Shown in pieces: positions 4,365-24,601 of a DNA stretch of 25,528 nucleotides. The stretch comes from a virus: positions 1 through 25,528 of IMG/VR virus record IMGVR_UViG_3300033153_008740. One strand, given 5' to 3'. Both the position numbers and the translations under genes were made by a program. The notes beneath the pieces are model-generated. The model ran no database searches. It was not told the DNA's origin and worked only from the letters and a program-made list of their open reading frames with translations. Positions within the stretch are counted from its first letter, which is position 1; each line of letters starts with the position of its first letter.

Positions 4365-4378
4365 TTTTATTATAAATA
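4365..4378 (-). promoter_or_regulatory. TATTTATAATAAAA motif upstream of the DNRLRE gene
   Basis: Read on the minus strand this is TATTTATAATAAAA, identical to the copy at 24588-24601. The TATTTATA core ends 12 bases before the ATG at 4358. It is probably the leftward half of a divergent promoter pair with 4432-4445. Confidence 0.6.
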
Positions 4379-4431
4379 TTCATTTATTTATTTTTTATAA
4401 CAACTCTAACTCTTTATTTTTTTTGTCAGCA

Positions 4432-4445
4432 TATTTATATTAAAA
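4432..4445 (+). promoter_or_regulatory. TATTTATATTAAAA motif upstream of the gp25 gene
   Basis: A copy of the shared AT motif, with the core ending 18 bases before the ATG at 4458. It is the rightward partner of 4365-4378 in a 99-base divergent intergenic region. A T-rich tract precedes it and no -35-like element is evident. Confidence 0.6.
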
Positions 4446-4457
4446 CAAAGCATACCT

Positions 4458-4865
4458 ATGGCTGTAAGTATAAAATTTCCTTTTAAAGAAACTAACTCTG
4501 GTGGTTTATTCATGGCTAATGAAACCACGCAAGAAGCAATTCAGACTAATCTAATTGCACTGCTTACACTTAAGAGAAGGAGTAGGGTTATGCATAATAA
4601 TTTATATTCTCCTCTTTGGGATTACATATTTGAACCGTGGGATGATATGTCTTCTACATTGCTTAAGGGCGAAATTATTGAAAAAATAGGAGATTTTATT
4701 CCAGAAGTTGAAGTTGTAGAAGTAGTGTTCACATTTACTGAAAATGAAAACTTATTGGAAGTTAAAGTAATTTATAAAATCGTTGACCTAGGCGGAGTTA
4801 ATGATAGCGTAAGCGTGATAATACCAGTTGAACCAGGTGAAGCTGGAGTAGATGTTCACACATAA
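4458..4865 (+). CDS. Baseplate wedge protein, gp25-like (GPW_gp25 family)
   Basis: A 135-residue protein close to the length of T4 gp25 (132). Residues 30-60 contain the family hallmark: LTLKRRSRVMHNNLYSPLWD followed directly by YIFEPWDD, where gp25 proteins read R-x-R-x-M-x-x-x-(Y/F)-G-x-x-x-x-x-x-F-(E/D)-P. The rest is the expected alpha/beta fold ending in strands around VEVVFTFTENENLLEVKVIY. gp25 nucleates wedge assembly and contacts the sheath at the baseplate rim. An internal ATG at residue 19 is an alternative start, but the ATG at 4458 keeps the conserved N-terminal KFPF segment and sits behind a motif and A-rich leader. The gp6-like gene follows 10 bases after its stop, the classic gp25-gp6 pairing. 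Confidence 0.92.
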   Translation: MAVSIKFPFKETNSGGLFMANETTQEAIQTNLIALLTLKRRSRVMHNNLYSPLWDYIFEPWDDMSSTLLKGEIIEKIGDFIPEVEVVEVVFTFTENENLLEVKVIYKIVDLGGVNDSVSVIIPVEPGEAGVDVHT

Positions 4866-4875
4866 TTAAGACAGA

Positions 4876-6774
4876 ATGGAACAAAAGACCGTAACAGTAA
4901 ATTATTTAAGTAGAGATTTTACCTCAATTAGAGAGGATTTAATCAATTACCTTAAAACTTTCTTCCCAGAACAATGGCAGGATTTTAATGTAACTTCTCC
5001 AGGTATGGCATTAGTAGAGCTTAATGCTTACGTTGGTGATTTGTTATCTTATGCTACTGATAAGAAATTTAATGAATTATTCATTGACGGAGTTCAAGAG
5101 AGAAGAAGCGCTTATAGGCTTGCTAAGACAAAAGGGTATAAGCCGCCAGGTGTTAGACCAGCAATAACTCTTGCTGAAATAATTATAGAAGTTCCACCAA
5201 CAGCAAACGGCCCAGACACAAGTTATCTTCCAGTATACAGACCTGATATGAAAGTTAAAGGAGCTGGACAAACATTTGGCACTGTTAATGAAATAGATTT
5301 TTCAAGTGATTTTAGTGAAGATGGAATTGCTAATAGAACAATTACACCTATATTAAATGGTAATCAAGATTTAATTAGATATAGAATACTTAAGAGAGAG
5401 AAAGTTAAGGCTGGAGTTACAAAGATTTTTAAAGTAGAAATCACAGCAAATCAAGCAAAACCATTTTTTCAAATAGAACTTCCAGACAAAAACGTTCTTG
5501 AAGTAATTGATGTTATAGCTATTGATAGCCTTGGTATAGAAAGGACTCCTTCTTTTACTGAATTTAATGATTTTGATTTAAAATATTATGAAGTAGAAGA
5601 CCTTCCAGAGAATAAAGTATTTTTAGAAGATGATACTGTTGATGGTGTTAATGGAGTAAAAACTGGTAGATACGTTGAGGTGAAGAGAAGATTTGAAAAG
5701 GATTTCCTTTCAGATGGTTCTTGTGTTCTTACTTTTGGTGGTGGAGAAGAAGATGTTGATGCTTATGAAGCATATATTGATAGCCTGACAAATGTTATTG
5801 CATGCCCAGACTCAAACGCTCTTGATGTTTCTGATGTTTTAAATAATACTGCACTTGGATTACAAGTAATGCCTAATACAACTATTTTTATAAAATATAA
5901 AGCTGGTGGAGGGCCTCTTAGTAATGTTGGCTCTAATGTTCTTAATTCAGTTTCAAATATACAAAGTCAATCACAAGGAGCTAATCAAACATTAGTTCAA
6001 GGAGTTGTATCTTCTACAAGAGCTAATAACCCAGTTCCAGCTATCGGTGGAGTAGGGCTTCCTTCTGTAGAAGAAGTTAAAAGCTATATTGGCGCAAATC
6101 ATGCTGCTCAAAATAGAACTGTTATATTAGATGATTATGTTTCGAGAGCATTTCAGATTCCAGGAAAGTTTGGAGCTCCATTTAGAGTTTTTGCTAAAGT
6201 AGAAGATAATAAAGTTAAATTCTATATTTTAACACAAGATGGTGCAGGAAAACTTGTTGCGGCCTCTACAAGTGTTATAAAACAAAATCTACAAAGATAT
6301 TTAGTTCCTTATAGAATGATTAACGATTATGTTGAAATTAATGATGGAAAAATTGTAAACCTTCAAATTGAAGCTGACTTATTTGTTGATAAAACATTTA
6401 ATGCTAGTGAAGTTAAATCTCAAGCTATAAACGCTATAAAGGATTACTTCGATGTATCAAAGTGGCAAATGAATCAAAATATCTATATATCTCAACTTAC
6501 AGATTTCTTAAGAGATATTCCAGGAATTATTAACGTTGTTGATATTAGAGTCTTTAATTTAGAAGGTGGAGAATATTCAAATACTGTGCATTCACAAGCT
6601 AACTTTAATAGAACTCAAGACCCTAATACTGGAGTATTTAGAACTCAATTTGGATACCTTGATAATGCTATAATAGGAACTCCTATTTCTATGTTTGAAA
6701 TTAGACTTCCTGAGAGGGATATAAAAATCAGAACTGCTTCTGGTTCTCCTGATAATGCAACTACAACACTTTAA
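4876..6774 (+). CDS. Baseplate wedge protein, gp6-like (baseplate J-like family)
   Basis: A 632-residue protein (T4 gp6 is 660). The N-terminus carries the gp6/baseplate-J signature: YLSRDFTSIREDLINYLKTF, then SPGMALVELNAYVGDLLSY with DKKFNELFID, RRSAYRLAKTKGYKPPG. The C-terminal half has the usual LVPYRMINDYVEINDG, ADLFVDKTFNASEVK and LTDFLRDIPGIINVVDI segments. gp6 dimers form the inner iris of the baseplate that rearranges on contraction. A Gln/Ser/Asn-rich insertion lies around residues 350-395 (SVSNIQSQSQGANQ), probably an exposed loop. It follows the gp25 gene by 10 bases and is likely co-transcribed with it. An 81-base gap with a new motif copy follows. Confidence 0.92.
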   Translation: MEQKTVTVNYLSRDFTSIREDLINYLKTFFPEQWQDFNVTSPGMALVELNAYVGDLLSYATDKKFNELFIDGVQERRSAYRLAKTKGYKPPGVRPAITLAEIIIEVPPTANGPDTSYLPVYRPDMKVKGAGQTFGTVNEIDFSSDFSEDGIANRTITPILNGNQDLIRYRILKREKVKAGVTKIFKVEITANQAKPFFQIELPDKNVLEVIDVIAIDSLGIERTPSFTEFNDFDLKYYEVEDLPENKVFLEDDTVDGVNGVKTGRYVEVKRRFEKDFLSDGSCVLTFGGGEEDVDAYEAYIDSLTNVIACPDSNALDVSDVLNNTALGLQVMPNTTIFIKYKAGGGPLSNVGSNVLNSVSNIQSQSQGANQTLVQGVVSSTRANNPVPAIGGVGLPSVEEVKSYIGANHAAQNRTVILDDYVSRAFQIPGKFGAPFRVFAKVEDNKVKFYILTQDGAGKLVAASTSVIKQNLQRYLVPYRMINDYVEINDGKIVNLQIEADLFVDKTFNASEVKSQAINAIKDYFDVSKWQMNQNIYISQLTDFLRDIPGIINVVDIRVFNLEGGEYSNTVHSQANFNRTQDPNTGVFRTQFGYLDNAIIGTPISMFEIRLPERDIKIRTASGSPDNATTTL

Positions 6775-6836
6775 TTAAAGCATTATAAATTTAGAAAAAT
6801 AAGATTAACTATTTAATACAGTTTTTTCTTTGCTTA

Positions 6837-6850
6837 TATTTAGAATAAAA
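6837..6850 (+). promoter_or_regulatory. TATTTAGAATAAAA motif upstream of the 974-residue protein gene
   Basis: A one-mismatch copy of the shared motif (TATTTAGA), with the core ending 11 bases before the ATG at 6856. It lies in an 81-base gap after the gp6-like gene; no convincing hairpin terminator is seen there. Confidence 0.5.
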
Positions 6851-6855
6851 GAATT

Positions 6856-9780
6856 ATGAGTATTCAAAGAGAGGAAATAACTATAAAAGAGTTCACATCT
6901 GGAACTACTCTTATATTTTTTAGTACACACTTAGCGTACAATACAGAAATATTAGAGAGAAATCCTGTTATTGAATACGCTCCCTCTATTATTACTCTCA
7001 ATAACTTTAACATACCAATTGAAATATCTACATTTGATGGACTGAATCTTTGGAAGTTAGACCCAAATAATATCTATCAACCCCTTACATCAACATCAAC
7101 AAATTTTGTGACAGGACATTCTTACGTTCAAGATGTAAATCAAATACTTGAATCTGGGACGATTAATAGAATTGAAAATGAATTTAAACAATCAATTTAT
7201 GATTCAATTGGAACAGCAGTTACAACATCTCCTACAAGTTATGTGTTCTCAGCATATAATGAAATTGATGATTTTTATGTTGATATAAAATTACAAAGAA
7301 CATTTGGAACTCTTGATACTCTTAATATCTACAACAACTTTATAAATAGTATGCCAGTTCAAGAGGCAAAGACTGGGGTAGTGTTTGGCAAATTAATGGC
7401 ACTTCAAACTATTAGAGACCCAGAGGGAAATAGAATTAGAATACCACTTAGAAATGTTCCTGTTGGCTTATTTAATCCTTCAGAGGATTTTCCAACTACA
7501 TCTTCTTTTAGTGATGATGGAGATAGAATATTTCTTAACGTTAAAGAATCAGCTGAGCAGCAAGATTATTTTAATGTTGAATCATTTAATCTTGATAAAA
7601 AAACTTTACTTAGGTCTGCATCTAAATTTACTTCAGTGCCAGACCAGTACAAATATATAACAACTACAAATGACGAAGGAGAATTTGTAATTTATGATGC
7701 TCCTCTTGGAAGTCAAATTGTTATGTTTGAGGTTGACCTTATGAAACAAGGTTTGACTAGAGATGAAATTGCTCTTAACTTCTTTCCTTTCCCGCCAGAT
7801 GAAGATGCAGTGATTGACCAAATTCCAAACTTTTCATTTAAACAATTTCCTATAGAAGTCGTTCCTGCTTGGGGAACAATACAAACTGGATACACAGAGT
7901 TAAATGTAACAGTTAATATGGACCTTAGGAAGTGGACTACGTATCTTATCCCACCTGTATCTGTAGGTGGCAATAAATTAGAGGCAGCTGTAGCATCTAG
8001 TGCCGCAAATAGCCTTAAAATAGGTATTAGGAATATGGCTAAGGAGGGCTATCCTAAGACTCAAATAAAAATGACATCTATTCCAAATGATTTAGACAAG
8101 GTTAATAATCAATTACTAAACTGGCATCAAGAGTTTACTCAAGTAAAAGATGAGGCTGATTTTTTCAAACATGGAATATCTATAATAAAATTGCCAGCAA
8201 ATATATATGACCCTAATGCTTTTAGGACTGATAAGGATGGAGTTCCTATGCCAAATCAAAAAGGCGTTTGGTTATCAGCGTATCAATTAAAAATTTTTTC
8301 TAACTCTAATAAAGGGGTTTCAAGAATGTCTGGAACTTATCATCAAGATAGTTCTCATGCATATAGTCACTATAATCTTACCCATACTAATGATAATATA
8401 TTAGCTCAAGATGAATCAAGTGAATCTTTAAATAAATTCCCTTACGAAAAACCTTGGTCAACTGAATACCCAAATCAATATTCAATACCATCAAAGCCAA
8501 CGCAATCAAGATTTATTTCAGATAAAACAAATGGTAGAACAGAGACAGCTCCAGGTAATGGATTATACTTCCTTAATGAGCCTTCTTTTTCTGATGGTGA
8601 TATGATTGGAAACTTAGTTGACTCCCAAACTACAACAGCTGGTGGATTTGGTATGCAACCAGCCTTCAATATTTGGATTCCAAACAGAGTTGCGCATGCT
8701 ATTACAAAAAATTATATGTATAAATATGAATCTGGAGTAGCTATTAATGAATCATACTCAAATGGATTCGAACCATCAAATCCAAACTTTCAGACTGGAG
8801 GGTTCACTAATTTTATAGGAACATCATCAGTTGTTGGAGGAGAAAAATATCAAAGACTTGAATGTGGCTACGGATACTTTTGTAGACCAGATGGATGGCC
8901 AAGAGTTGCAAGATACCCTTGGGGTGGAGGAGAAGCTTTGTTTAAGCCAGATGTTACTCATGGGCAAGGATTAGGTGGTTCTACAACTACTCCTGGACCA
9001 GGAACTACTGGTTTCTTATATTCTGATGGACTTTGGAGTGGTCCGTCACATAGAAATGATATATACAATATTCAAACCCAAGACCCAGCTCTTGCTTTAG
9101 ATAGAGCTAATGGCCTTAAGAATGCTGGAGTTGATTTCTTTAGAGTTATAGACCCAAGTTCAGACAATTTAACTCCTATTGAACCTTTTGTGATTCCTAC
9201 TTATTCATTATTAAACACAAGTGCTGGTAGTGCAGAAAGAATAAATGCTGGTGGATGGTTTTCTATAAAAAATCGTGGAGAAATAAATGTAAATATTCCA
9301 TATTTTCTTAACCCTACTGGCTTAGGTTACCCAGTTTGGACACCAACACAAGGTTATCATACTGGAACAAGTTTATTAAAACCTGGTGAAATATTATATA
9401 TATTTGGAAACTCTCCAGCTTCTCACGCACCTGTGAACCTTAGATTAGCTTTGCAATATACAGCTGTTAAACTTCCAGGTAATAGTAATTTTAACATAAA
9501 TACAAACAGATATGACATATCTTTTTATGAAATTGGAGTAGTATATAGTTCTCCTATTTATCAGAGTGGACCATCACTTCGAACTGTTGCAATAGGGATG
9601 GCTGCTGGTATAACAGCTCCATCATATTATCTTAAAACACAACACTCTGGAGGAGGTGCAGGACTTTCAAGTCTTGGTATTAACTGTACTACTGTTAGTA
9701 ATGCTAATACATCTAATCCATTTGGATTTGGAGTCGCTGGAATGGTTATCGAAAACAACACAACTTTACTTCACTCATAA
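6856..9780 (+). CDS. Large beta-rich virion protein with carboxypeptidase-regulatory-like domain
   Basis: A 974-residue protein transcribed behind its own motif. Residues about 174-295 resemble a carboxypeptidase-regulatory/transthyretin-like beta sandwich: VFGKLMALQTI with DPEGN, LRNVPVGLFNP, then after an insertion DEGEFVIYDAPLGSQIVMF, matching the usual DxxGxFxIxxxPxG ending. Residues 300-470 (LNFFPFPPDEDAVIDQIPNF, WTTYLIPPVSVGG) form another probable domain. The C-terminal half is Gly, Asn, Ser and Tyr rich (YPWGGGEALF, GGSTTTPGPGTTG), typical of exposed virion beta structure. Its TAA abuts the ATG of the next gene. From position after gp6 it could be a gp7/gp10-like wedge periphery or fibre-attachment protein, but sequence alone does not settle this. 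No signal peptide or enzyme motif was seen. Confidence 0.75.
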   Translation: MSIQREEITIKEFTSGTTLIFFSTHLAYNTEILERNPVIEYAPSIITLNNFNIPIEISTFDGLNLWKLDPNNIYQPLTSTSTNFVTGHSYVQDVNQILESGTINRIENEFKQSIYDSIGTAVTTSPTSYVFSAYNEIDDFYVDIKLQRTFGTLDTLNIYNNFINSMPVQEAKTGVVFGKLMALQTIRDPEGNRIRIPLRNVPVGLFNPSEDFPTTSSFSDDGDRIFLNVKESAEQQDYFNVESFNLDKKTLLRSASKFTSVPDQYKYITTTNDEGEFVIYDAPLGSQIVMFEVDLMKQGLTRDEIALNFFPFPPDEDAVIDQIPNFSFKQFPIEVVPAWGTIQTGYTELNVTVNMDLRKWTTYLIPPVSVGGNKLEAAVASSAANSLKIGIRNMAKEGYPKTQIKMTSIPNDLDKVNNQLLNWHQEFTQVKDEADFFKHGISIIKLPANIYDPNAFRTDKDGVPMPNQKGVWLSAYQLKIFSNSNKGVSRMSGTYHQDSSHAYSHYNLTHTNDNILAQDESSESLNKFPYEKPWSTEYPNQYSIPSKPTQSRFISDKTNGRTETAPGNGLYFLNEPSFSDGDMIGNLVDSQTTTAGGFGMQPAFNIWIPNRVAHAITKNYMYKYESGVAINESYSNGFEPSNPNFQTGGFTNFIGTSSVVGGEKYQRLECGYGYFCRPDGWPRVARYPWGGGEALFKPDVTHGQGLGGSTTTPGPGTTGFLYSDGLWSGPSHRNDIYNIQTQDPALALDRANGLKNAGVDFFRVIDPSSDNLTPIEPFVIPTYSLLNTSAGSAERINAGGWFSIKNRGEINVNIPYFLNPTGLGYPVWTPTQGYHTGTSLLKPGEILYIFGNSPASHAPVNLRLALQYTAVKLPGNSNFNINTNRYDISFYEIGVVYSSPIYQSGPSLRTVAIGMAAGITAPSYYLKTQHSGGGAGLSSLGINCTTVSNANTSNPFGFGVAGMVIENNTTLLHS

Positions 9781-12405
9781 ATGGACGACAAGAAAAAAAT
9801 AGTATTAGCAAGCGAGGACATCATAACTAAAGGTTTGGATGACATTTTTATTAATGTAAATCTACAGCATACCTTTAATCAAATTAAAAAAGATAAGTAT
9901 GATAACAACTTCGACCTTGCTGAACAATTTAGAAAAGAGAGAAACGCATCGAGAGATTTTAGAATTTATGGAATACTGGATTCTAACATTATTGATTTAG
10001 ATTCTTTTTCATTTGATGTTTATAAAGATTCTGGTCTCACAGACTTCCATTCAACAGTTGCTACTACTCCTCTTATTTATGATGAGAAAAATGTATTCAG
10101 AAAAAAGAGAGGAAAGTATTTGCTTGAATTAAATAACTACGATGCTGATGTTGCTTATATGAAAATAACTGGAGACTATATTTCATATGGCGACCAAGTA
10201 GTTGAGCAGAGAGTTGTATATTATACTCTTGATGGAGACTTTGTTGAATATGGGACACAAACTGTAGACATAGGTCTTAATAATCCAGGATTCTTAGAAA
10301 TTGAAAATGACTTTCCATTCTTCTACAACAAGCATTGGATTAAAAAAGATATTGAAATAGTTGAAGAGAAAAAAGCTATCATACAATTCCAAGAAGCAGA
10401 AAGTAATGTTAATGAAGGAAACTCTGTAGAGATAACAGTAGAATTAGATAAGCCAAGTCCTTTTGGAAACGAGATTGTTGATTTAGATGTAGAATTAGTT
10501 ACAGCTAAAGTTGGAGATTATAGCGTATCTTTATCAGGAAATCCAGTAACTTTCCCGACAACAATTTCTTATGCTACTGGAGAACAATTCAAGACATTTA
10601 CATTTAATGGATTAAATGATGATTTCCCAGAGTTTTCTGAAAGTCTATTCATCAATATGTCAAACTATCAATTAGTTGAGTCTGGACTTACAACAGTTCA
10701 CGCAGCAAATATACATGATGAAACTCCTAGACATTATGCAAATTATAATTTTGGAGAATTGTATAGAAATAGGTATGTATTTTCAGGTAGAACTTATTTT
10801 AACTCAAACAACCCTAATCCAGTTCATACAAACTCTTTCTCTATTCTTAGAAATGGATTGAAATATGAAAGAAGAAATGAAGAGTTTTATCCAAACGATA
10901 CATACACTTTATCAATAGAAAATAAAGGTGGAGATTCTGTCTTGCCAATTAATAATTCTCTTGGTGTATCATTAGAAGAGTTATTTTTATCTGGTCAAGT
11001 TAAAACATATAACTTGTCTTCACAATATGATGGAACACAGGTTCAAAAATTAAATGTTATATTTTCTGGTTCTGGAATAAACGTTCAAAGCAGTAATCAT
11101 GGTTCTATGTTTATAAATGGAGTGCAGTTTAATACGAATAATGGTATTAATTATGTTTCTGCAAAACTTGCATTTACTTCTCTAAATCCACTAACTTTAA
11201 AAAATCTTGAAATTCCATGGACTTTTGATTTTGATGATAATAATAAGATAATTACCATAACATCTAAGAGCTCAGGTGTTCCTGTAGATTTTTCAACACT
11301 AGAAACAAAAGGTCCTGCGCTTGGACCTGTTGACCCGAACAAAATACCTATTGTTGAAGAAGTGGATAGTTTTGTTTTTTATGACCAAATCCCATTGGAA
11401 GTTAAGCTTGCTGCAAATTCAAATGCAAACAATAGTTGCTTGTATGAAATTATAGTAAATAAAGCTGGTTATGGAGGAGTAGTAATTCCAAATTCACCAG
11501 TCCCAGCACTTTCATCTGCAACTGATAATTATTTAATTACAGGAGTTGATTTAGTTATGAGAGATTGGGATAGCAATATTCAAAACTGTACATTTATCAC
11601 AGGAACAACTGTTGCCACAACTGTTGCAAATAACCAAACTTGGTCAATTCAAAATGTGACTCCTAATCCTTCTAATTTTATTATGGAAATTGGAGAAGCT
11701 TATGTGAATGGTACTGTTTTATATAGTAGCAATTTACTTCCAGGAAAACAAACTAATGAATCTGATTATTTATCAGCAGCATTCTATCCTAAGAAATTAT
11801 TAACAGAGCCGTGTACTGATGACCCAATATTAAATGTACCTATAGCTCAAAGAACTATACTTACAATACCAGGAATAGGAAGCGGAAACGGAACCTATCA
11901 ACAATTGCTTCAACAAAATTCAAACTCTAATCGTTCATTTGATTTTAGAACTGGAACAACTGGTGCATACACAACATTCTCTCATTCTAATAACTCTTTC
12001 CAGCAATTCCAAGATTGGAAATGGGGAAGTAATGTTTCAGTTAATGGCGGAACATATGGTGGAGTTAACTCGCAAATGTCTAATATTTTAGATTTTGGAA
12101 ACGCTCCAGTAACCCAATTTGGACCGATAGAAGGTCAAGATGCAAATGGAAATCCAGCAATTCCAGGAGCTCAAACAATTTATTTAGAAGCTAAGATTCC
12201 AGGAGTTCCTTTTGAAATAACTAATATATCAAACGCCTCTGTTACTACAACAGCATCAAACCAATATAATCAACAAGTTATTGCTGGAACTATTCTTGGC
12301 CCAATCGGAGTTAATACAATTGTTCCTAGCTCGCTTGTTGGTGGAGCCAATCCTGCAAGAAACTTCTTAGGAGGATTTAATCCTGCATTAGTATTTGTGC
12401 CATAA
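9781..12405 (+). CDS. Calx-beta-containing virion protein
   Basis: An 874-residue protein starting on the base after the preceding stop. The first ~190 residues are mixed and acidic (QFRKERNASRDFRIYGIL). Residues about 199-300 form a Calx-beta-like repeat: IIQFQEAESNVNEG, VEITVELDKPSPFGN, an ISYATGEQFKTFTF strand and DDFPEFSESLFINMS, the usual order for this calcium-binding adhesion fold. It is followed at 313-328 by DETPRHYANYNFGELY, a junction also found after the second Calx-beta module of the 634-residue protein at 13727. The remainder is Asn/Ser/Thr/Gly-rich beta sequence with a Gly-rich end. No transmembrane segment is visible. A wedge-peripheral or adhesin role is inferred. A gap with a motif copy inside a palindrome follows. 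Confidence 0.75.
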   Translation: MDDKKKIVLASEDIITKGLDDIFINVNLQHTFNQIKKDKYDNNFDLAEQFRKERNASRDFRIYGILDSNIIDLDSFSFDVYKDSGLTDFHSTVATTPLIYDEKNVFRKKRGKYLLELNNYDADVAYMKITGDYISYGDQVVEQRVVYYTLDGDFVEYGTQTVDIGLNNPGFLEIENDFPFFYNKHWIKKDIEIVEEKKAIIQFQEAESNVNEGNSVEITVELDKPSPFGNEIVDLDVELVTAKVGDYSVSLSGNPVTFPTTISYATGEQFKTFTFNGLNDDFPEFSESLFINMSNYQLVESGLTTVHAANIHDETPRHYANYNFGELYRNRYVFSGRTYFNSNNPNPVHTNSFSILRNGLKYERRNEEFYPNDTYTLSIENKGGDSVLPINNSLGVSLEELFLSGQVKTYNLSSQYDGTQVQKLNVIFSGSGINVQSSNHGSMFINGVQFNTNNGINYVSAKLAFTSLNPLTLKNLEIPWTFDFDDNNKIITITSKSSGVPVDFSTLETKGPALGPVDPNKIPIVEEVDSFVFYDQIPLEVKLAANSNANNSCLYEIIVNKAGYGGVVIPNSPVPALSSATDNYLITGVDLVMRDWDSNIQNCTFITGTTVATTVANNQTWSIQNVTPNPSNFIMEIGEAYVNGTVLYSSNLLPGKQTNESDYLSAAFYPKKLLTEPCTDDPILNVPIAQRTILTIPGIGSGNGTYQQLLQQNSNSNRSFDFRTGTTGAYTTFSHSNNSFQQFQDWKWGSNVSVNGGTYGGVNSQMSNILDFGNAPVTQFGPIEGQDANGNPAIPGAQTIYLEAKIPGVPFEITNISNASVTTTASNQYNQQVIAGTILGPIGVNTIVPSSLVGGANPARNFLGGFNPALVFVP

Positions 12406-12414
12406 ATTAATTTA

Positions 12415-12430
12415 CAATTATTTATAATTG
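12415..12430 (+). promoter_or_regulatory. Perfect palindrome containing TATTTATA, directly before an ATG
   Basis: CAATTAT-TT-ATAATTG is a perfect 7-base inverted repeat with a 2-base centre. It embeds TATTTATA at 12419-12426, only 4 bases before the ATG at 12431. That is too close for an ordinary promoter to yield the start codon, so it may act on the RNA or as an operator, or the start may lie downstream. Confidence 0.45.
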
Positions 12431-12952: not shown

Positions 12953-12954
12953 TA

Positions 12955-13725: not shown

Positions 13726-13726
13726 C

Positions 13727-15631: not shown

Positions 15632-15665
15632 TTAAATTAGTAGATGTAGATTTTTTAATTTTTAG

Positions 15666-15680
15666 TATATTTATAATATA
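15666..15680 (+). promoter_or_regulatory. Palindromic TATTTATA element abutting the endonuclease start
   Basis: TATATT-TAT-AATATA is a perfect 6-base inverted repeat with a 3-base centre. It contains TATTTATA at 15668-15675, with only 4 bases before the ATG at 15680. The geometry is the same as at 12415-12430. Confidence 0.45.
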
Positions 15681-16567
15681 TGCCAAAGAAATTAACAACA
15701 AAAGAATTTGTAAAAAAAGTTATTTATAAAAATTCTCAAACTAAAATAGATATTAAATGTTTAAATCATGGAGTTTTTAAACAAACTCCTAATAATCATA
15801 TTTCACAAAATCAAGGCTGTCCTATTTGTGCAGGAAATAAAAAAAATAGTATTAATGAATTTATACAAAATTCTAAAAATATTCATGGAAATAAATATGA
15901 TTATTCATTAATTAATTATAAAAATAACAAAACGAAAGTTAAAATTATATGCAAAAAACATGGAGAATTTATTCAAAAGCCGTGTGACCATATAAATCAA
16001 AAACAAGGATGCCCAAGGTGTGTTGGACTAGGAAGGACTACTCAAGATTTTATAAATGATGCGTCTGAAAAACACGAAGATAAATACAATTATTCAAAAG
16101 TTGTTTATAAAAAATATAATAAACATATTGATATAATATGTCCAATACATGGGAAATTTAAACAAAAGCCTTATATACACCTTATGGGTTCTGGGTGTCA
16201 AAAATGCTCAGAATCTAAAGGAGAAAGAAAAGTGGCTTTATTTTTAAAGAAAAATAATGTAAATTTTGAAAGGCAAAAGGTTTTTAATGATTGTAGAAAC
16301 TTTAAAACAAATAGACATCTTAAATTTGATTTCTATTTACCAGATTATAACACTTGTATAGAATATGATGGAGAATATCATTATGAACCTTGGAGGTTGT
16401 ATTTTGACAAATCTGTAGCAAAAATAAAATTTGAAGAAATGAAACAAAGAGATGAGATAAAGAATAAGTATTGTTCAGGCAATAATATAGGACTCTTAAG
16501 AATTCCATATTTTGAAATTAAAAATATTGATAAAATTATTTCTGATTATTTATATAAAAACAATTAA
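15680..16567 (+). CDS. Free-standing homing-type endonuclease: three zinc ribbons plus PD-(D/E)XK nuclease
   Basis: A 295-residue protein. It has three zinc-ribbon-like units with CxxH...CxxC ligands: C27/H30/C47/C50, C91/H94/C111/C114 and C154/H157/C173/C176. Units 2 and 3 carry the full HGxKYxYS lead-in; unit 1 lacks about 16 residues of it. The C-terminal domain looks like a Vsr/PD-(D/E)XK-type nuclease: GERKVALFLKK with E182, KFDFYLPDYN with D217, and CIEYDGEYHY with E228, D230 and H234 as likely metal and catalytic residues. This architecture is typical of phage-borne free-standing homing endonucleases, which cut intron- or insertion-lacking alleles and spread their own gene. It interrupts a run of structural genes and is visibly richer in A-runs and Lys/Asn codons than its neighbours, consistent with separate acquisition. 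It is not itself a virion gene. Confidence 0.87.
   Translation: MPKKLTTKEFVKKVIYKNSQTKIDIKCLNHGVFKQTPNNHISQNQGCPICAGNKKNSINEFIQNSKNIHGNKYDYSLINYKNNKTKVKIICKKHGEFIQKPCDHINQKQGCPRCVGLGRTTQDFINDASEKHEDKYNYSKVVYKKYNKHIDIICPIHGKFKQKPYIHLMGSGCQKCSESKGERKVALFLKKNNVNFERQKVFNDCRNFKTNRHLKFDFYLPDYNTCIEYDGEYHYEPWRLYFDKSVAKIKFEEMKQRDEIKNKYCSGNNIGLLRIPYFEIKNIDKIISDYLYKNN
16547..16560 (+). promoter_or_regulatory. TATTTATATAAAAA motif inside the 3' end of the endonuclease gene
   Basis: A copy of the shared motif, with the core ending 15 bases before the ATG at 16570. It overlaps the last codons of the endonuclease, so the downstream gene appears to keep its own promoter despite the insertion. Confidence 0.55.
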
Positions 16568-16569
16568 TT

Positions 16570-17445
16570 ATGGCAGTAGGTACTTATGGGTCTGTTAAGT
16601 TGGCAGACTGCGACTTTAACGATGTTGATGTTCTTTATTCTTATTCACCTAATAGAGAGTCTTTAGGAGACGTTCAATTTAAACCACTTTTTAATAGCGT
16701 TACAAATAACGAATTTAGAAAAATGCTTGGTGGAGATGGTGGATACAAACTAAGATTGCCTGCATCCATTTTTAATAAGCTTGGATTTTACTTACTTCAG
16801 ATAAGACCAAAAATTTTTCAGACAGAAATTGTTGACTGTTCTTTTGTAATCACAAATAATGATACAGAAATTCAAATTTCAAAGAAAGGGATTGTAATAC
16901 CAAAATTACAATTTCAAAGTACGGGAGCTCTTACTGGATACCAATTAGAATATTTTGATGATAATAATGTGAAGATTAAAAACTTCCATAGAATCATTAC
17001 AAGCTCTGACCTTGTTTCTGTTAATCCAAATAACAATACAACAAACAATAGTTCTACAACTTATGTTTTAGACCCTAATGGAAATCAATTATTTCTTACA
17101 CTTACTCCAGATGAAGCAAGTCTTCTTACAAGCCAGGTTAGTCCTGACCTTGGAAAATCTGGACAACAAATCCTGTTATCGAATACATTTTTTGATGCAG
17201 AGATGATTGAAATTGAGATGGTTGACCAAAGTATTAAAACACTTAGTTATGCTCTTTATGGAGAATCTACAAGAGACCTTGAAAATGGAGTTTACTCTAT
17301 CTTTGATGAAAATGGAAATCTTTATAAGCAATACAATTTACTTACTAGAAAGAAAGTTACTAGTGATGGTAGAGTTGATATTAAGGAAGAAAGAGATAAT
17401 ATCAATAGAACTCAAACATTCTTCAACCTTTCTCAAGGTATTTAA
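16570..17445 (+). CDS. Unknown virion/tail protein
   Basis: A 291-residue protein starting 2 bases after the endonuclease stop and behind a motif copy. The N-terminal 95 residues (GSVKLADCDFNDVDVLYSY, KLRLPASIFNKLGFYLLQI) look like a compact beta domain. A Gln/Asn/Thr-rich linker at about 152-165 (NPNNNTTNNSSTTYVLDP) joins it to a second half ending KVTSDGRVDIKEERDNINRT, likely helical near the end. I cannot name the family. Domain layout and neighbours suggest a tail or baseplate accessory protein. Its TAA is one base from the 3' end of the convergent minus-strand fibre gene, leaving no room for a terminator. Confidence 0.72.
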   Translation: MAVGTYGSVKLADCDFNDVDVLYSYSPNRESLGDVQFKPLFNSVTNNEFRKMLGGDGGYKLRLPASIFNKLGFYLLQIRPKIFQTEIVDCSFVITNNDTEIQISKKGIVIPKLQFQSTGALTGYQLEYFDDNNVKIKNFHRIITSSDLVSVNPNNNTTNNSSTTYVLDPNGNQLFLTLTPDEASLLTSQVSPDLGKSGQQILLSNTFFDAEMIEIEMVDQSIKTLSYALYGESTRDLENGVYSIFDENGNLYKQYNLLTRKKVTSDGRVDIKEERDNINRTQTFFNLSQGI

Positions 17446-17446
17446 T

Positions 17447-18286
17447 TTAGATTATAATCCAATCAGAAGCAGTACCTCCAGTATTGTACATTATTCTGTT
17501 TAATGAACCACCACTAAAGAACATTCTACCTGCAACAGCGCTTGGAAGAGTTGTTTGTGGATTATAATCTATATATTCATCTGTATATAATCTTTGAGTA
17601 TATGCAGTATCTTCAATTGTTGCAGTTATCCCTGAGCCTGCTAATATAGAAGACCTAAATGAAGATGGGTCTATAGAATTTGTTGAACCTGCTAAAATAG
17701 AGGAATTAGTTGCCCCTGCATTATTACCACTTCCATTATTAGGTATAATAGCATTAACTCCTGTTGATGCAGACCAAAGATTTCCTCCAGTTGTTGAGAA
17801 TATAGTATAAAGGTCTGTGTTTGCAGAGTAAATAACTCCATTACCATTACCTCCAGAGAAGTTTGCCCATGCGCTCATATAAATACCATCTTCAACTGTT
17901 ATTGGGTCATAACTACCAACTGAAGGATTATTAAACCCTCTTAGTGTTGTTAAATTAATTGTTTGTGCAGATATTGTTGTTGCACTAATTGAGTTTAATA
18001 TAATATCGTCAAGAAGACTTATAACTGGAAGGGTCCCTGTTCCACCAGTTGACATATTTGTTCCTGGTTGAACTCTTGTGATGTCATTCCCATCTGCAGC
18101 TGTTAAGAATATATTATAAAGGTCGGTTCCACCTGAAGTAATAGTTCCACCACCAGTACCAGCAGATAAGTTTCCACCAGAATCTAGCACTACATTATTA
18201 AATTGTGCAGTACCGCTAAAAGCGCTGTTTATTGCCTTTCTACCTGCTCCAAAGGTGACACCCGTTGCTATTAATTCTCCAGTCAT
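17447..18286 (-). CDS. Tail fibre protein
   Basis: A 279-residue Gly/Ser/Thr/Asn-rich protein on the minus strand. Internal repeats are visible: TDLYNIF at 54-60 and TDLYTIF at 157-163, and SSILAG at 195-200 and 212-217, the latter resembling the GSxN-type coil repeats of trimeric fibres and adhesins. The C-terminus AVAGRMFFSGGSLNRIMY followed by SDWIII matches the AxxGRxYF...L.xYNGT.W end common to phage fibre tips. It is the last gene of the leftward operon 22382-17447, with a motif copy 16 bases upstream that could give separate expression. It most likely contributes to host recognition. Chaperone or receptor partners are not evident. Confidence 0.72.
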   Translation of the reverse strand: MTGELIATGVTFGAGRKAINSAFSGTAQFNNVVLDSGGNLSAGTGGGTITSGGTDLYNIFLTAADGNDITRVQPGTNMSTGGTGTLPVISLLDDIILNSISATTISAQTINLTTLRGFNNPSVGSYDPITVEDGIYMSAWANFSGGNGNGVIYSANTDLYTIFSTTGGNLWSASTGVNAIIPNNGSGNNAGATNSSILAGSTNSIDPSSFRSSILAGSGITATIEDTAYTQRLYTDEYIDYNPQTTLPSAVAGRMFFSGGSLNRIMYNTGGTASDWIII

Positions 18287-18296
18287 TTTTATATTA

Positions 18297-18310
18297 GTTT
18301 CTTATAAATA
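18297..18310 (-). promoter_or_regulatory. TATTTATAAGAAAC motif upstream of the tail fibre gene
   Basis: Read on the minus strand, the TATTTATA core ends 16 bases before the ATG at 18286, in a 30-base gap. It suggests the fibre gene can be transcribed apart from the two genes upstream of it. Confidence 0.5.
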
Positions 18311-18316
18311 GTTTCT

Positions 18317-19981
18317 TTAATATTTAATTATATCATTTTCTTTCACAGCCCAAATATCATAATCATTATCCCAAGCAATTTCAATATAAAAGTCTAAATT
18401 TGTATCTGAACTCACAACAACTTGTCTACTATCTGCAACGTACCCTCTATAAGTTGTATTAAGTGTGTATGTACCTGCTTCTAATGAAGTGAATACAAAT
18501 CCACCACTTGCGTCAGTTGATTGTGTTATAAAGCTTGCATTAGGATATATAAGAGTCATTGAAGCTCCATCTATTGTACTTCCAGTTACTGTACCGCTAA
18601 GTACATAGTCTGCAAGAATACTTTCAGAATCAAGAGATGGTGGAGTTACAAGTCCAGCAATGTCAATTGAGTATGGACTATCAGATTCTGTAAACACAAA
18701 TGTATTGATTGGATTCGTTTGTGTACATATACTTTTATATTCAGAGAAAGTAACAACACTTTGTCTTACATCATATATATTTTTAAGCACCTTTACATTA
18801 CCAACCCTATACAACAAGCACTGGCCCGTCTTAAGAGAAGTTTGAAATTTTCTAATGGTCTTAGATGCTGTGAATTCTGTATCAGGACTCTTTGTCTTAC
18901 TCACAGCCTCTTCTTTAAAATCATCTGACTTAGGAATAGGGTATGAAAATATAGTACCAGTAAATCCTGTGTCTCCAGTATTGTAAGTTATTTGAACTAA
19001 GTATTCATCAGCCCCTTCTCCATTTGACCAGAATATCTCTGGAGTAAATGTATCAATTTGTCCATCTGGCGAAGGGTATTCAATAATTGGTTTATCTGGA
19101 ACTTCAAAGTATGAAAAATATTCACCTGCAGCAAAGTTAAGACCAGCAAATTCACCTCTATCAATATTTTGTCTATCTGTTGTTGTTTCAGTAACAGTTA
19201 CAGATTTATAAGCATCACCATCAACTACTCTACCAGCATCATTAATTGATTTAACGTCTTTCAATCCAGTAGTAGAAGTTCTATTAAATATGAAATTTGT
19301 ATCTACTATATATTGGTCTCTATCTTGATATAATTCTTGCTTATGCTCTCCAAGATTTTTAATATATTGTTCAGGTTGGAAGTCATAAATATTTGTTGTT
19401 ATACCAGTTGTTGCTGCTGTAATTGAAATCACAGGAATAAGAAGTTGACTTTGAAGGTCAGCTATTGTAGGGTTTGTAACTTTACCAGCATTTCTATTAG
19501 CAGTTTTGCTATCAGTCTTCCTAGAAGAATTAATAGTATTTTTAAGTTCACTAATATTTCTTCTTATTGTTTTAATTTTAACTTCACCAGTGACTTCATC
19601 AACCTCTTCAATAGTTTCTACTATATCATTTTCTGATTGAATTGTTTCATCGCTTTCCGTTTTAAGACCGTCTTGAATAGTACTATACATATCCCAACTG
19701 ATTCTATAAATGTCATGTTTTATAAAAGTGTCTGGACCAAAACTATCTGTATTTTCGCTGAAATCATATCTTATGAAAGGTTTTACAAGACTTGTAAATA
19801 TAGCAAGAGGATTTTGTCCATAGTAATCTGTTGTTCCACCAACTGTTGAGTATTGTGGAACCTCAAATATAAATGGAGAAATAATAGATTCAGAAGAATC
19901 ATAATAAATATTATGAGTAAAACTTTGAACTACGCTATCTTCGTCTCCAGTTGTTGATTTTTTTGATTCTCTATATATCAT
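18317..19981 (-). CDS. Virion protein with FN3-like and carboxypeptidase-regulatory-like domains
   Basis: A 554-residue protein. Residues 1-295 are unassigned, with a Lys/Glu-rich stretch at 105-165. Residues about 296-412 look FN3-like (PDKPIIEYPSPDG, FTPEIFWSNGEGADEYLVQI). Residues about 459-533 form a carboxypeptidase-regulatory-like sandwich (YVLSGTVTGSTIDGASMTLI, DASGGFVFTSLEAGTYTLN, YRGYVADSRQVVV), a module used for binding and spacing in surface proteins. It starts one base after the stop of the gpI-like gene with no motif between them, so the two are probably one transcript. It likely links baseplate to fibre; no catalytic motif is visible. Confidence 0.75.
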   Translation of the reverse strand: MIYRESKKSTTGDEDSVVQSFTHNIYYDSSESIISPFIFEVPQYSTVGGTTDYYGQNPLAIFTSLVKPFIRYDFSENTDSFGPDTFIKHDIYRISWDMYSTIQDGLKTESDETIQSENDIVETIEEVDEVTGEVKIKTIRRNISELKNTINSSRKTDSKTANRNAGKVTNPTIADLQSQLLIPVISITAATTGITTNIYDFQPEQYIKNLGEHKQELYQDRDQYIVDTNFIFNRTSTTGLKDVKSINDAGRVVDGDAYKSVTVTETTTDRQNIDRGEFAGLNFAAGEYFSYFEVPDKPIIEYPSPDGQIDTFTPEIFWSNGEGADEYLVQITYNTGDTGFTGTIFSYPIPKSDDFKEEAVSKTKSPDTEFTASKTIRKFQTSLKTGQCLLYRVGNVKVLKNIYDVRQSVVTFSEYKSICTQTNPINTFVFTESDSPYSIDIAGLVTPPSLDSESILADYVLSGTVTGSTIDGASMTLIYPNASFITQSTDASGGFVFTSLEAGTYTLNTTYRGYVADSRQVVVSSDTNLDFYIEIAWDNDYDIWAVKENDIIKY

Positions 19982-19982
19982 A

Positions 19983-22382
19983 TTATGGCAATGGTGTTTG
20001 AGTTACTTGTGTAATTGGTATTTGAATAACCCCATCCATATCGAATGTATCAATTTCAGATGAAAGATTATTTTGATTAACATATCCAACAATTTTAACA
20101 GCAGTTATAGATGGATTTATACCTTGACTAACTCCACTATTTATTACTATTGGAGTAAGAGAATCTTGTAAGAAATCATTAATAACTGAATTTACTTGAA
20201 CAGGTGTAATAACTGGTCTTATTTCTGGTGGTAGAGATACTTGGAATTCTGAGCCATCATTAATCCCTTCTTTATAGACAAATCTTTGTCTATGAAATAT
20301 TGTGTTTCTATAAACTGTACCATGTTCAAGAATTGATGTAGCAGGAATTAATTGAAATAAATAATCGTTAAAATTAACTTCTAACAAATTAAGATAAGCT
20401 TCAAGTTTTTTAATTGTAAGTCGATTAGATATTGGTTGAGAAAGATAGAAATAATTCAAATATATTCTCTTAAGTTCTGGGTAACCCCAAGAAGTATGAA
20501 CTTGAGAATTTGTCTTTCTGTTTCTAGTCTCTATGTTCGATGAATATATGTATTTAATATAATCGTTAAGAGTCATTCCAGTTATTGAAGATGGATTAAC
20601 AAAATCACAATTAGGAATTGCATATTCGAAAGGAACTGTATTAGCACTAAACGGAGGAGCTAGAGGACTTCCCCATACCCAGCAAGTACCGCTCAATTGA
20701 TACCATTCAAAAACATCACACTCTACACCCTTTGCAGGGTCTAGTCTTGCCACTACCTCTTTTGTGTTTACTACATTTTCACTACCAGTGAATGCAGTCA
20801 ATCCAACTTGAACCTTTACATTGTCAGCCCTCTTGATTGGATTAAATTCTGGCCTCCATTGATTAATATATCTTTGTCCATCACCTCTTCCTTTTCCGCC
20901 TTCTTGGAAAATGTACTGGCTTGTATCATAGTTTATAAATCCTCTTGAATTTGATTTGCTAACAGAATTATTTGGCCCTACTGAAGAAGTAAGTGTTGAA
21001 TTTATATCATACACAAATTCATCAAAAGAAATAAGACAATCTGGAGCTCCAATCAATTTAAAAATAAATTGAATTGCGTCTCTAGTTCCTTTCTTTTTAT
21101 AAAGCCAGTTTATGTTAACCAATATTCTTCTCCAAATTTCTACATTGTAATATGCAAAAGAATTTTGTTCAGAATTTTCATCATCTGCCAGGTATTCAAA
21201 AAGGTCTATCTCACTAAAAGAGCTTGACAGCTTCCATCCAAGCAAGTTACTAAGTTTTACTAAAAACTTATCAGGAATATTTTCTTCCCCATCATATGTT
21301 ATCGTATGACCATATGCTATGTTGTCTATAAAGTTTTTGATTTCATCAAACTGTTTTGCGTATGAAGAAATAAGCTTTTTATAAATCTCTGTATCAGTAT
21401 CAAAATCAAGATAGTTTTCTGGTATTACGGTTTTAATCATAATATCTGTCTTATCTAAATCAACATTCCCAGCCAGAAGAAGTATGTTATCTTTATAAGC
21501 ATCAAACGCAGAACCATCTGTATCAGGATTAAATCCATCTATTGTTTTTGGCCAAGGCACTATGTATGTGAAATCCCTTTTCTCGTCATCAACATCTGGA
21601 ATATCAAATCTACCACTATACAATAATTGATTTTCAAGTCTTGATAATTGTAATTTATAATTAGTAAATCTTTCTCTTGATGGTCTAATGTATATTGGAG
21701 CAGTAGATGTTGTTGTTGAAGTCCCTGTTAATAAACTACCTAATATTGTAAATTCAAGAACTGGAGTTGTACCCCCAGTGTAAGAATACGATTCAATTTT
21801 ATAAGTTTCTGTTTCCCCACTCACCTGAATTTCAAACATGTTTGTTTGAGTCATCAAGCTATATTGATTTCCAACTGTTGAACCTGAATTGAAAAATATA
21901 GAACCTTGATTAGTTATTACACTTGATGGGATTTTAAAATTAGCAGTCACCCCGCCAGTTGTTGCATTGTATGTTTGACTATAATCATATACTGTATTAC
22001 TAACTCCGTCATCATATGCAAGAGCTGCATACGGGAAGTTGTCAAGTACATTATTTATAGAACGTGCTATTTCTGTATAGAATGAACCAAAATAAGAATA
22101 ACTATGAGGGTCAGAATTTAATGGCTTAAGCTCATTGTTTTGAATTGATGTATATGTTGTAGGATTAAAATCAGTCGCTCCAAGATTTTCTAGTGTAGAA
22201 AATGGAGTAAAACTAAGGTTTTTAGAATCTCCTGTTATGTTGTCTGGCTCGCTACTTCTCTCTATTCTATAGTCACCAAAAGTAAAGATAGCCTCAGAAC
22301 TCGTATTAGGAAATCTAAGGTCTTGCCCAGGCCTAAATGCTACTGATAAAGTGTTTGCTGTATTTACTGGTGTTGATGCCAT
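19983..22382 (-). CDS. Baseplate/tail protein with P2 gpI-like (TIGR02242-like) domain
   Basis: A 799-residue protein, first gene of the leftward operon. Residues about 335-450 carry the tail protein I signature seen in P2 gpI, T4-like wedge proteins and extracellular contractile systems: IPDKFLVKLSNLLGWKL, then WRRILVNINWLYKKKGTRDA and IQFIFKLIGAP, that is, LxxLxxxLGW followed by WLYxxKGTxxAIxxxxxLxG. The first 330 residues are beta-rich and Ser/Thr/Gly-rich; the C-terminal ~330 include SSITGMTLNDYIKYIYSS and repeated polar segments. In relatives this domain joins the wedge to tail fibres. It is far longer than P2 gpI (about 180 residues), so the flanks are additions. A motif copy lies 14 bases upstream. 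Confidence 0.8.
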   Translation of the reverse strand: MASTPVNTANTLSVAFRPGQDLRFPNTSSEAIFTFGDYRIERSSEPDNITGDSKNLSFTPFSTLENLGATDFNPTTYTSIQNNELKPLNSDPHSYSYFGSFYTEIARSINNVLDNFPYAALAYDDGVSNTVYDYSQTYNATTGGVTANFKIPSSVITNQGSIFFNSGSTVGNQYSLMTQTNMFEIQVSGETETYKIESYSYTGGTTPVLEFTILGSLLTGTSTTTSTAPIYIRPSRERFTNYKLQLSRLENQLLYSGRFDIPDVDDEKRDFTYIVPWPKTIDGFNPDTDGSAFDAYKDNILLLAGNVDLDKTDIMIKTVIPENYLDFDTDTEIYKKLISSYAKQFDEIKNFIDNIAYGHTITYDGEENIPDKFLVKLSNLLGWKLSSSFSEIDLFEYLADDENSEQNSFAYYNVEIWRRILVNINWLYKKKGTRDAIQFIFKLIGAPDCLISFDEFVYDINSTLTSSVGPNNSVSKSNSRGFINYDTSQYIFQEGGKGRGDGQRYINQWRPEFNPIKRADNVKVQVGLTAFTGSENVVNTKEVVARLDPAKGVECDVFEWYQLSGTCWVWGSPLAPPFSANTVPFEYAIPNCDFVNPSSITGMTLNDYIKYIYSSNIETRNRKTNSQVHTSWGYPELKRIYLNYFYLSQPISNRLTIKKLEAYLNLLEVNFNDYLFQLIPATSILEHGTVYRNTIFHRQRFVYKEGINDGSEFQVSLPPEIRPVITPVQVNSVINDFLQDSLTPIVINSGVSQGINPSITAVKIVGYVNQNNLSSEIDTFDMDGVIQIPITQVTQTPLP

Positions 22383-22471
22383 TCAAAAGGTTTTATAATA
22401 AATATTAGCGAAAAACTTTTTGAATGTAAATAGAAAATTTCTTTTTATCTAAAACTATTTATTTTTGAATG
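22380..22471. repeat. 9-base inverted repeat and third direct copy in divergent region
   Basis: CATTCAAAA at 22380-22388 is the exact inverse of TTTTGAATG at 22418-22426, and a third TTTTGAATG lies at 22463-22471. The left arm covers the start codon of the gpI-like gene. The arrangement surrounds the leftward motif and could be an operator, but is short enough to arise by chance in AT-rich sequence. Confidence 0.45.
22391..22404 (-). promoter_or_regulatory. TATTTATTATAAAA motif upstream of the gpI-like gene
   Basis: A one-mismatch core (TATTTATT) read on the minus strand, ending 14 bases before the ATG at 22382. It lies between the arms of the 9-base inverted repeat at 22380-22388 and 22418-22426. 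Confidence 0.5.
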
Positions 22472-22495
22472 ATAATTAAATAAATTTTATCGTTC

Positions 22496-22509
22496 TATTT
22501 ATATAAAAT
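22496..22509 (+). promoter_or_regulatory. TATTTATATAAAAT motif upstream of the 678-residue fibre protein gene
   Basis: The core ends 29 bases before the ATG at 22533, the longest spacing of the set, followed by an A-rich leader. It is the rightward member of the 150-base divergent region 22383-22532, which otherwise holds only the repeats described. Confidence 0.55.
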
Positions 22510-22532
22510 ACTGAAGATTAAAAACAAAAAAT

Positions 22533-24569
22533 ATGTCGTATCTACCAAACGAGCCAACAACTTTTATCAATATAAAGCTCACCGATGAGGGAAGAAGACT
22601 TTTATCATTAGGTCAACTTACTTTTGACAAAGCTGTATTGTCTGATAGAGAAGTTAATTATGGCATAGATAGAACTGGCGCATATGATATAGGATGTCTA
22701 AATAGAATTATAGCACCTAAAGATGATGCACCAACATTTGCACAACCTCTTAGTTATGATGGTTCAAGTGCATTTACTATAACTGTAGGTTCTGCAGCGC
22801 AGACAATAACTGCAGCAACAGAATCAACTGGTTTCTTTACTGGAACAACAAATAATTGGGCTATAGATTTTGATGAATACAGAGGATTTAATTCAATATC
22901 TTATTCTGGAGGTGCTCCAGATGGAACAAATGTAGTTACAGTTCAAAACCTTGCTGGTTCATATTTCCCAACAGGAGGAGAATTAATTTATATCCCTTGG
23001 GAACCAATTCAAAATAGCGGTAAGACAAATGACACATCAACTTTAACATATTCTGCTAATCCTACAAACGACTTATGGTATAGAGTTCTTTCTGCGGATA
23101 CTGGAGCAACAACAGTAACTCTTGATAGAAATATTCCAAACTTTGGAGGAAGCGCAATTACTACATCTCAAGAAATAAATACTTATTTTTATCCATATAA
23201 TGGAGTTGAAACTTATTATGGTTCTGCATCTACAGTTAATGCTAAGGTTTGGAATATGAACATTATTAGGACAAGTTCAGTAGAGGGTACAAACTCTACA
23301 ATAAGCGGATATACAACATACGGTTCAATTCAATATAATGGTACTAAACAATATCTTGGATTCGGAGACGACACAAGACAAGTAGGCGTTATTCACTATA
23401 CAAATGAATACACAGGAAACACATATGCTGAGCAATTAGTAGAGAAATCTGTTGTTGTAGATATTCCAAATATCATGTGGCACAGATATTCAGCAACAGC
23501 TGGACAAGGAACTACTCATGGGCTGAGGCTTTATGATACAGTAGGTTCAACAATATTTGATTCAATCTCACAAACAACATATAGAGAATTAAGAGATGGT
23601 AACTCCACTACTAACGCTGTTGTTGGTAGAGTTTATCATAAATTAAAAATGATTGTTATAACTGACTCTGAATTACTAACAGCTATATCATATAAATCAA
23701 ACAGGTCATATACATTACCTGCTTTAAATATTGATGCATCTTCAGTTCCAAAAGCTCCACTTACAAGTTCAAACGCTACTGGAATTTTAAAAACTGGATA
23801 TACTTATTTTGTAACTTACATCACAGAGAGCGATGCGGCATATGCTTCTGGAACATCTTATGGATACCCACAATCATTACCATGTCAATATATTCAACAA
23901 ATTGATGGCGATGTTGATAGTGTAGGAAATCCACAATATCTTAGAGGATATTTTAATACATCTTTCTTCCCATATCTTAGAGATTCAGTAGGAATGACTT
24001 CTTATTCAGGAACAGGATGGAATACAAACAAGGTTCAACTTTTAGTTAATAAAGTAAACTTGACAACAAGCCCTTCTGTAAACTTAGATACTATTCCGAC
24101 AGATGGATGGAGATTAGTTTCTACCACATCTGGAAATGGAATCTATACTGGAGGAACAAACTCTTTAACTATTTCTGCAGCAGACATGTCATTAAATCAA
24201 TTTATAATCTCTCAAGAAGATTATGATAGCGGAACTACTTATGTATTAGATAATACATTCTACGATAATAATGATACATCTCTTAATGGTTTAACATTCG
24301 GTAGTGAATCATTTTTCTTTGGAAATATAACAGCCTCAATTTTGGCTACATCATATAAATCTGTAATGACAGTTTTAGTCCCTGACCAAAACTTCAATAC
24401 ATCAACTCAAAACTCTAGTTATAACTCTATATTAGATACAGATACGTTTATAACAGAAGTTGGAATATTAAATAATCAAAATAATCTTGTTGCAGTTGGT
24501 AAGCCTACTTATCCAATTAAGAAGAATGTATCAAGATATTTAGCATTTCAATTAGAAATAGATTTTTAA
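22533..24569 (+). CDS. Tail fibre/appendage protein with virion-attachment N-terminus
   Basis: A 678-residue protein. The N-terminus (SYLPNEP, LTDEGRRLL at 16-24, then AVLSDREVNYG) shares spacing with the next gene's product and probably docks both on the same tail site. The middle is Gly/Thr/Ser/Tyr-rich beta sequence. The C-terminus (FITEVGILNNQNNLVAVGKP followed by TYPIKK and a final FQLEIDF) matches a closing module I know from tail proteins of large myophages. No enzyme motif or membrane segment is visible. It has its own motif and A-rich leader and is followed after 41 bases by a second motif-bearing gene. An adhesin or appendage role is likely. Confidence 0.72.
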   Translation: MSYLPNEPTTFINIKLTDEGRRLLSLGQLTFDKAVLSDREVNYGIDRTGAYDIGCLNRIIAPKDDAPTFAQPLSYDGSSAFTITVGSAAQTITAATESTGFFTGTTNNWAIDFDEYRGFNSISYSGGAPDGTNVVTVQNLAGSYFPTGGELIYIPWEPIQNSGKTNDTSTLTYSANPTNDLWYRVLSADTGATTVTLDRNIPNFGGSAITTSQEINTYFYPYNGVETYYGSASTVNAKVWNMNIIRTSSVEGTNSTISGYTTYGSIQYNGTKQYLGFGDDTRQVGVIHYTNEYTGNTYAEQLVEKSVVVDIPNIMWHRYSATAGQGTTHGLRLYDTVGSTIFDSISQTTYRELRDGNSTTNAVVGRVYHKLKMIVITDSELLTAISYKSNRSYTLPALNIDASSVPKAPLTSSNATGILKTGYTYFVTYITESDAAYASGTSYGYPQSLPCQYIQQIDGDVDSVGNPQYLRGYFNTSFFPYLRDSVGMTSYSGTGWNTNKVQLLVNKVNLTTSPSVNLDTIPTDGWRLVSTTSGNGIYTGGTNSLTISAADMSLNQFIISQEDYDSGTTYVLDNTFYDNNDTSLNGLTFGSESFFFGNITASILATSYKSVMTVLVPDQNFNTSTQNSSYNSILDTDTFITEVGILNNQNNLVAVGKPTYPIKKNVSRYLAFQLEIDF

Positions 24570-24587
24570 GTTTTTTTTAAATTAAGA

Positions 24588-24601
24588 TATTTATAATAAA
24601 A
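24588..24601 (+). promoter_or_regulatory. TATTTATAATAAAA motif upstream of the collagen-tailed gene
   Basis: Identical over 14 bases to the minus-strand copy at 4365-4378. The core ends 15 bases before the ATG at 24611 and lies in a 41-base gap. Confidence 0.6.

Follow-up and report, generated by a model that had tools for sequence, protein, structure and literature searches.

A short AT-rich sequence, TATTTATA, recurs just before genes in this window, which is an entire 25,528-base viral contig (IMGVR_UViG_3300033153_008740), and raises the question of what it does and which protein reads it. An earlier note, made without database searches, took it for a candidate phage late promoter and suggested that a sigma or gp55-like factor of new specificity, encoded by the phage, recognizes it. 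The evidence presented here makes it likely that the motif forms the core of the promoters of a phage late regulon and is read by a gp118-like sigma; transcription starts, late timing and recognition are inferred, and there are no binding data.

The window carries gp25-like and gp6-like baseplate genes, a CinA-like gene (2456) and a homing endonuclease ORF (15680-16567). Its gp6-like protein shares 58-80% identity with those of 14 related viral contigs; the closest isolates, the Flavobacterium phages immuto and Mel-JY01, are remote (28-29%). The window and its 14 relatives form a set of 15 contigs that are related and thus not independent samples. Most relatives are fragments, G008 (186,855 bases) being the only large contig among them, and of the 16 records considered all except immuto may be fragments. 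The phage family is described here as tailed viruses infecting marine Flavobacteria-type bacteria. Bacteroidota hosts are indicated by the near absence of Shine-Dalgarno sequences (0/21 window genes, 6% of G008 genes), together with Flavobacteriales MAG contigs that make up several of the genome-collection matches of the candidate sigma family.

The motif and its ten sites in the window

All ten sites claimed in the earlier note were recovered at their coordinates and on their strands, including one-base variants of the core at 6837 (TATTTAGA) and 22397 (TATTTATT). Because the relatives are not independent samples, a held-out weight matrix, trained on the 14 related contigs only and then run on the window, provides a better test than pooled counts. 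Its top eight window matches are eight of the ten sites, at 15.0-22.3 bits, against a maximum of 8.65 bits for the reversed control. Conservation was assessed by ortholog footprinting, in which a site was counted at ≥10 bits and orthologs shared 38-85% protein identity. The eight genes with strong motifs have a site before their orthologs in 9-14 relatives. The remaining window genes have no site at their orthologs, save the homing endonuclease (2/4) and gene 25092 (1/11).

The highest-scoring of these putative late promoter elements, TATTTATATTAAAA at 4432..4445 (+), ends its core 18 nt before the gp25-like gene 4458 (22.3 bits; 13/14 orthologs). On the minus strand, TATTTATAATAAAA at 4365..4378 stands 12 nt before gene 4358-2922 (15.0 bits; 13/14 orthologs), and the same 14 bases recur, as had been claimed, at 24588..24601 (+), 15 nt before gene 24611 (16.0 bits; 13/13 orthologs). 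Also on the plus strand are the variant element TATTTAGAATAAAA at 6837..6850, 11 nt before gene 6856 (17.0 bits; 9/14 orthologs), TATTTATATAAAAA at 16547..16560, 15 nt before gene 16570 (18.3 bits; 14/14 orthologs), and TATTTATATAAAAT at 22496..22509, 29 nt before gene 22533 (16.8 bits; 14/14 orthologs). Minus-strand sites further include TATTTATAAGAAAC at 18297..18310, 16 nt before gene 18286-17447 (15.9 bits; 11/11 orthologs), and the variant TATTTATTATAAAA at 22391..22404, 14 nt before gene 22382-19983 (18.2 bits; 12/14 orthologs).

The other two sites are less strong or belong to a separate, leaderless class. The core TATTTATA at 12419..12426 (+) ends 4 nt before ATG 12431, taken as the start of its gene in preference to TTG 12428. 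This site cannot be scored by the matrix because the ATG is only 4 nt past the core, and the same arrangement, TATTTATA-4 nt-ATG, is found in several relatives. The core at 15668..15675 (+), 4 nt before the homing endonuclease gene 15680, is a weak candidate with a marginal, near-noise score of 9.2 bits; the next window match, at 7.9 bits, is within noise. With these measured gaps, the claim that eight of ten cores lie 11-29 bases before the ATG held. The absence of the motif before genes packed behind another gene also held and extends to their orthologs, as did its placement before most transcription units on both strands, where it is conserved at unit starts.

Alignment of 153 unique sites yields the consensus (A/C)TATTTATA-nn-AAAA, also written (A/C)TATTTATAnnAAAA; a T-rich patch lies 8-10 nt before the core. 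The aligned sites carry no information at -35 and their logo lacks TTTG, bearing out the claims of no -35 element and of a poor fit to the Bacteroidetes TAnnTTTG promoter. Among intergenic copies of TATTTATA lying ≤60 nt upstream of a gene across the 15 contigs, 166 are in the sense orientation and 22 are reversed, the latter reading TATAAATA in the gene's sense. The motif extends to contigs of more distant members of the family (99 sense, 25 reversed). No relevant report of TATTTATA in connection with phage promoters turned up in the open-access literature.

One alternative is that these are chance AT-rich words in AT-rich gaps. In its favor, the window gaps are 84.5% A+T, and six of the 13 window copies of the plain 8-mer fall within coding sequence; the 8-mer by itself is weak evidence, and what carries the signal is where the copies lie, which way they point and the AAAA tail. 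Against it, the upstream gaps hold 7 exact sense copies where dinucleotide shuffles predict 0.50, and 0 of 2000 shuffles reach 7. The strong orientation bias, the conservation before diverged orthologs and the recovery of the sites by the held-out matrix all but exclude chance. What is shown is the motif itself, where it sits, how it is oriented and conserved, and that no -35 element accompanies it; that it marks the starts of late transcription units is likely, with both the start sites and the late timing inferred.

Two further features of the window concern individual genes. The putative late promoter of gene 16570 sits within the 3' end of the homing endonuclease ORF. The gap at 2137-2222 is the sole window gap without the late motif; it holds a host-type sequence, TATATTTG (2162-2169), which precedes gene 2223 and the CinA-like gene and is kept in 5/6 relatives. 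These two genes make up a cassette that sits within the late block but has a promoter of another kind.

Motif-preceded genes in related phages

In G008, TATTTATA sites are almost all located at 37-133 kb, and a different element, TTCTTTATA, serves the genes at 139-172 kb. In that second region, 36 genes have in common the module TCCCCCTTTT-N-TTTCTTTATA, whose spacing is constant (loci L025-L027). From its appearance, this module likely represents a second, probably early, promoter class. It also overlaps terminator-like hairpins of the preceding gene. In the cultured phage immuto, the genes annotated as terminase (119017), tail sheath (147026), tail tube (149201) and tape measure (150801) stand behind the TATTTATA motif. 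Structural genes stand behind the motif in the window, in the 37-133 kb region of G008 and in immuto. The label "late" rests on these gene functions, as there are no timing data. Immuto additionally has a second motif, around TATATTTAGGTATCAATAATTAAAAC, before many genes mostly outside the late block (L072-L075).

A second alternative places the signal in the RNA: the motif could, for example, be a translation-initiation enhancer or an RNA-processing site kept at a fixed distance from the start codon. This reading is consistent with most cores ending 12-17 nt before the ATG and with phages that largely lack Shine-Dalgarno sequences. However, genes inside operons and their orthologs are not preceded by the motif, and the distance from core to ATG falls into two classes, one of 3-4 nt and one of ≥9 nt, with outliers at 57-66 nt. 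A site 3-4 nt before the ATG also leaves little space for a leader signal. In Mel-JY01, where ATATTTAT occurs upstream of genes by 11:0 and stands ahead of head and tail block genes, the core-to-ATG distance is 33-42 nt. These longer leaders contain SD-like sequences, which favors a transcription signal over a translation or start-codon signal. The RNA-level reading is very unlikely.

A candidate sigma factor

Profiles of the T4 late transcription proteins were searched for a factor that might read the motif. The gp55 profile (phrog_234) has no match at E≤1 in the 15 contigs. Neither the gp33 profile (phrog_254) nor the gp45 clamp profile (phrog_223) has a match in the 16 records, all but immuto possibly fragments; no other clamp families were included. 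The search for a gp55/gp33-like gene proposed in the earlier note therefore found nothing in the contigs and a weak gp55 match in immuto only, to KNV73_gp118 (E 0.008).

KNV73_gp118, previously unannotated, is one of just 11 proteins common to immuto and G008, with counterparts at G008 34377-35423 and L003:2619-3524. Its family is encoded in 12 of the 14 relatives and in immuto, and the other two relatives do not cover the region; presence in all covered relatives is shown. The gene lies outside the window: collinearity puts it just upstream of the window-equivalent block, ~1.6 kb beyond the left edge of the window, and its presence in the window's own phage is inferred from the relatives. The family has 187 matches among viral contigs. 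Among 50,697 phage records it occurs in six, namely four immuto phages, Mel-JY01 and LR756508.

Sequence evidence that this protein is a sigma factor is limited. Pfam Sigma70 profiles do not match three family members at E≤10, and the candidate profile produces chance matches only against PDB sequences. Comparison of the family with gp55 by hhalign gives E 0.0089, and its N-terminal half aligns on region 2 with E 0.0043, better than against ECF sigmas (E 0.26). The C-terminal part has weak support as sigma4 (E 0.053), and hhalign probabilities against known sigmas are low throughout (1-8%).

Two AlphaFold models of moderate confidence (pLDDT 66 and 73) were built with the immuto protein left out of the input family, and essentially every PDB entry returned in their structural comparisons is a sigma factor. 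For the window-clade model, T4 gp55 (7d7c_F) is nominally first (Z 9.2, 3.1 Å, 106 residues), although gp55 is not singled out because Z differences under 1 amount to ties. Model residues 13-117 superpose on region 2 of E. coli sigmaE (Z 9.4, 2.8 Å, 91 residues), in agreement with a predicted sigma2 fold. The C-terminal domain, not modeled alone, aligns on sigma4 in whole-chain model alignments. With moderate confidence, the gp118-like protein is predicted to have a sigma fold. Its predicted architecture comprises a gp55-like sigma2 domain and a sigma4-like C-terminal domain, the latter with only weak sequence support.

A third alternative accepts the late promoter and assigns its reading to a host sigma, to an ECF-type sigma of G008 or to an unrecognized activator, leaving the gp118-like protein with another role. 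G008 does encode an ECF sigma with clear Pfam matches, and LR756508 has a gp118 family gene yet shows no motif enrichment. Against this, immuto has the motif and no match to Sigma70_r2 or Sigma70_r4_2. The Sigma70_r2 profile also finds an ECF sigma in no relative besides G008, though most are fragments. The gp118 family, in turn, is present in every covered relative and models as a sigma, so that this alternative appears unlikely. The G008 ECF sigma was dropped as a general late sigma because immuto has the motif without a recognizable sigma70 domain; a single-sequence search of viral contigs with it found no other relative. It lies at 165382-166002 (L070), is nearest to crAss-like phage sigma-W proteins and is itself behind the TTCTTTATA class of element.

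Reading by the gp118-like protein remains the preferred explanation. In phages without the candidate gene (phi4:1, RM378, PTm1 and, scanned with the matrix, T4), no motif was found before genes, with only the first 50 kb or the late block considered. Co-occurrence of motif and candidate follows descent, so recognition is not proved. Under the preferred explanation, the Bacteroidota host RNA polymerase would carry a phage-encoded sigma, most likely the gp118-like protein, and would bind (A/C)TATTTATAnnAAAA, which would act as a -10-type element unaccompanied by a -35 box. Transcription would start ~4-6 nt past the core on both DNA strands, a distance inferred from the 3-4 nt spacing class if those genes are leaderless, and the resulting leaders would be very short or absent. 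The earlier proposal of a phage sigma or gp55-like factor with a new specificity is therefore supported in silico, with a candidate in 12/12 covering relatives and immuto, while starts and recognition remain inferred. It requires one refinement: the candidate also has a predicted sigma4-like domain and is not simply gp55.

Relation to T4 and other promoter systems

The T4 late promoter is an 8-bp element without a -35 box. It is read by gp55, a protein equivalent to sigma domain 2 alone, while gp33 mimics sigma4 and gp45 serves as the activator (PMC2988020). The system described here similarly has an 8-bp -10-type core, lacks a -35 element and serves virion genes. The candidate is likewise predicted to be a small, divergent relative of sigma domain 2, and the window baseplate genes are T4-like. 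Unlike T4, whose core is TATAAATA, the core TATTTATA is its reverse complement when read in the gene's sense, as the earlier note had stated, and carries an additional AAAA tail. Unlike gp55, the candidate has its predicted sigma4-like domain in the same chain. The system thus appears to work like the T4 late system, but membership is not shown; it is not filed as T4-type because its core fails the sequence comparison and no gp33 or gp45 is recognizable in these mostly fragmentary contigs.

Other known systems resemble it in part. Phage sigma70/ECF sigmas, such as crAss-like sigma-W and the G008 protein, share the sigma2-sigma4 two-domain layout predicted for the candidate, but the gp118 family is not recognized by Pfam sigma models. 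The Bacteroidota housekeeping promoter TAnnTTTG of Flavobacterium johnsoniae (PMC6847099) is also AT-rich with a weak or absent upstream element. TATTTATA does not fit it, and only the sequence before gene 2223 does.

Why a fused sigma for late transcription has not turned up is a question raised in the T4 review (PMC2988020). A bolder reading is that the gp118 family supplies a natural one in T4-like phages, joining a gp55-like sigma2 and a sigma4 in one protein that reads the reverse complement of the T4 core, possibly without sliding-clamp coupling. The evidence tips modestly toward this reading. The system as a whole would offer a natural case bearing on why the late sigma of T4 is divided between gp55 and gp33. 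It would also define a late promoter for a Bacteroidota phage group, allowing late units to be annotated from sequence alone, and propose a function for the unannotated protein family. Immuto on Flavobacterium sp. LMO8 is a cultured phage-host pair, making these ideas directly testable.

Just downstream of the candidate sigma in one relative (L003:3535-3900) lies a gene for a 122-aa protein similar to the candidate's C-terminal domain, found in 8 relatives. It is possible that this is a separate sigma4-like protein recalling gp33.
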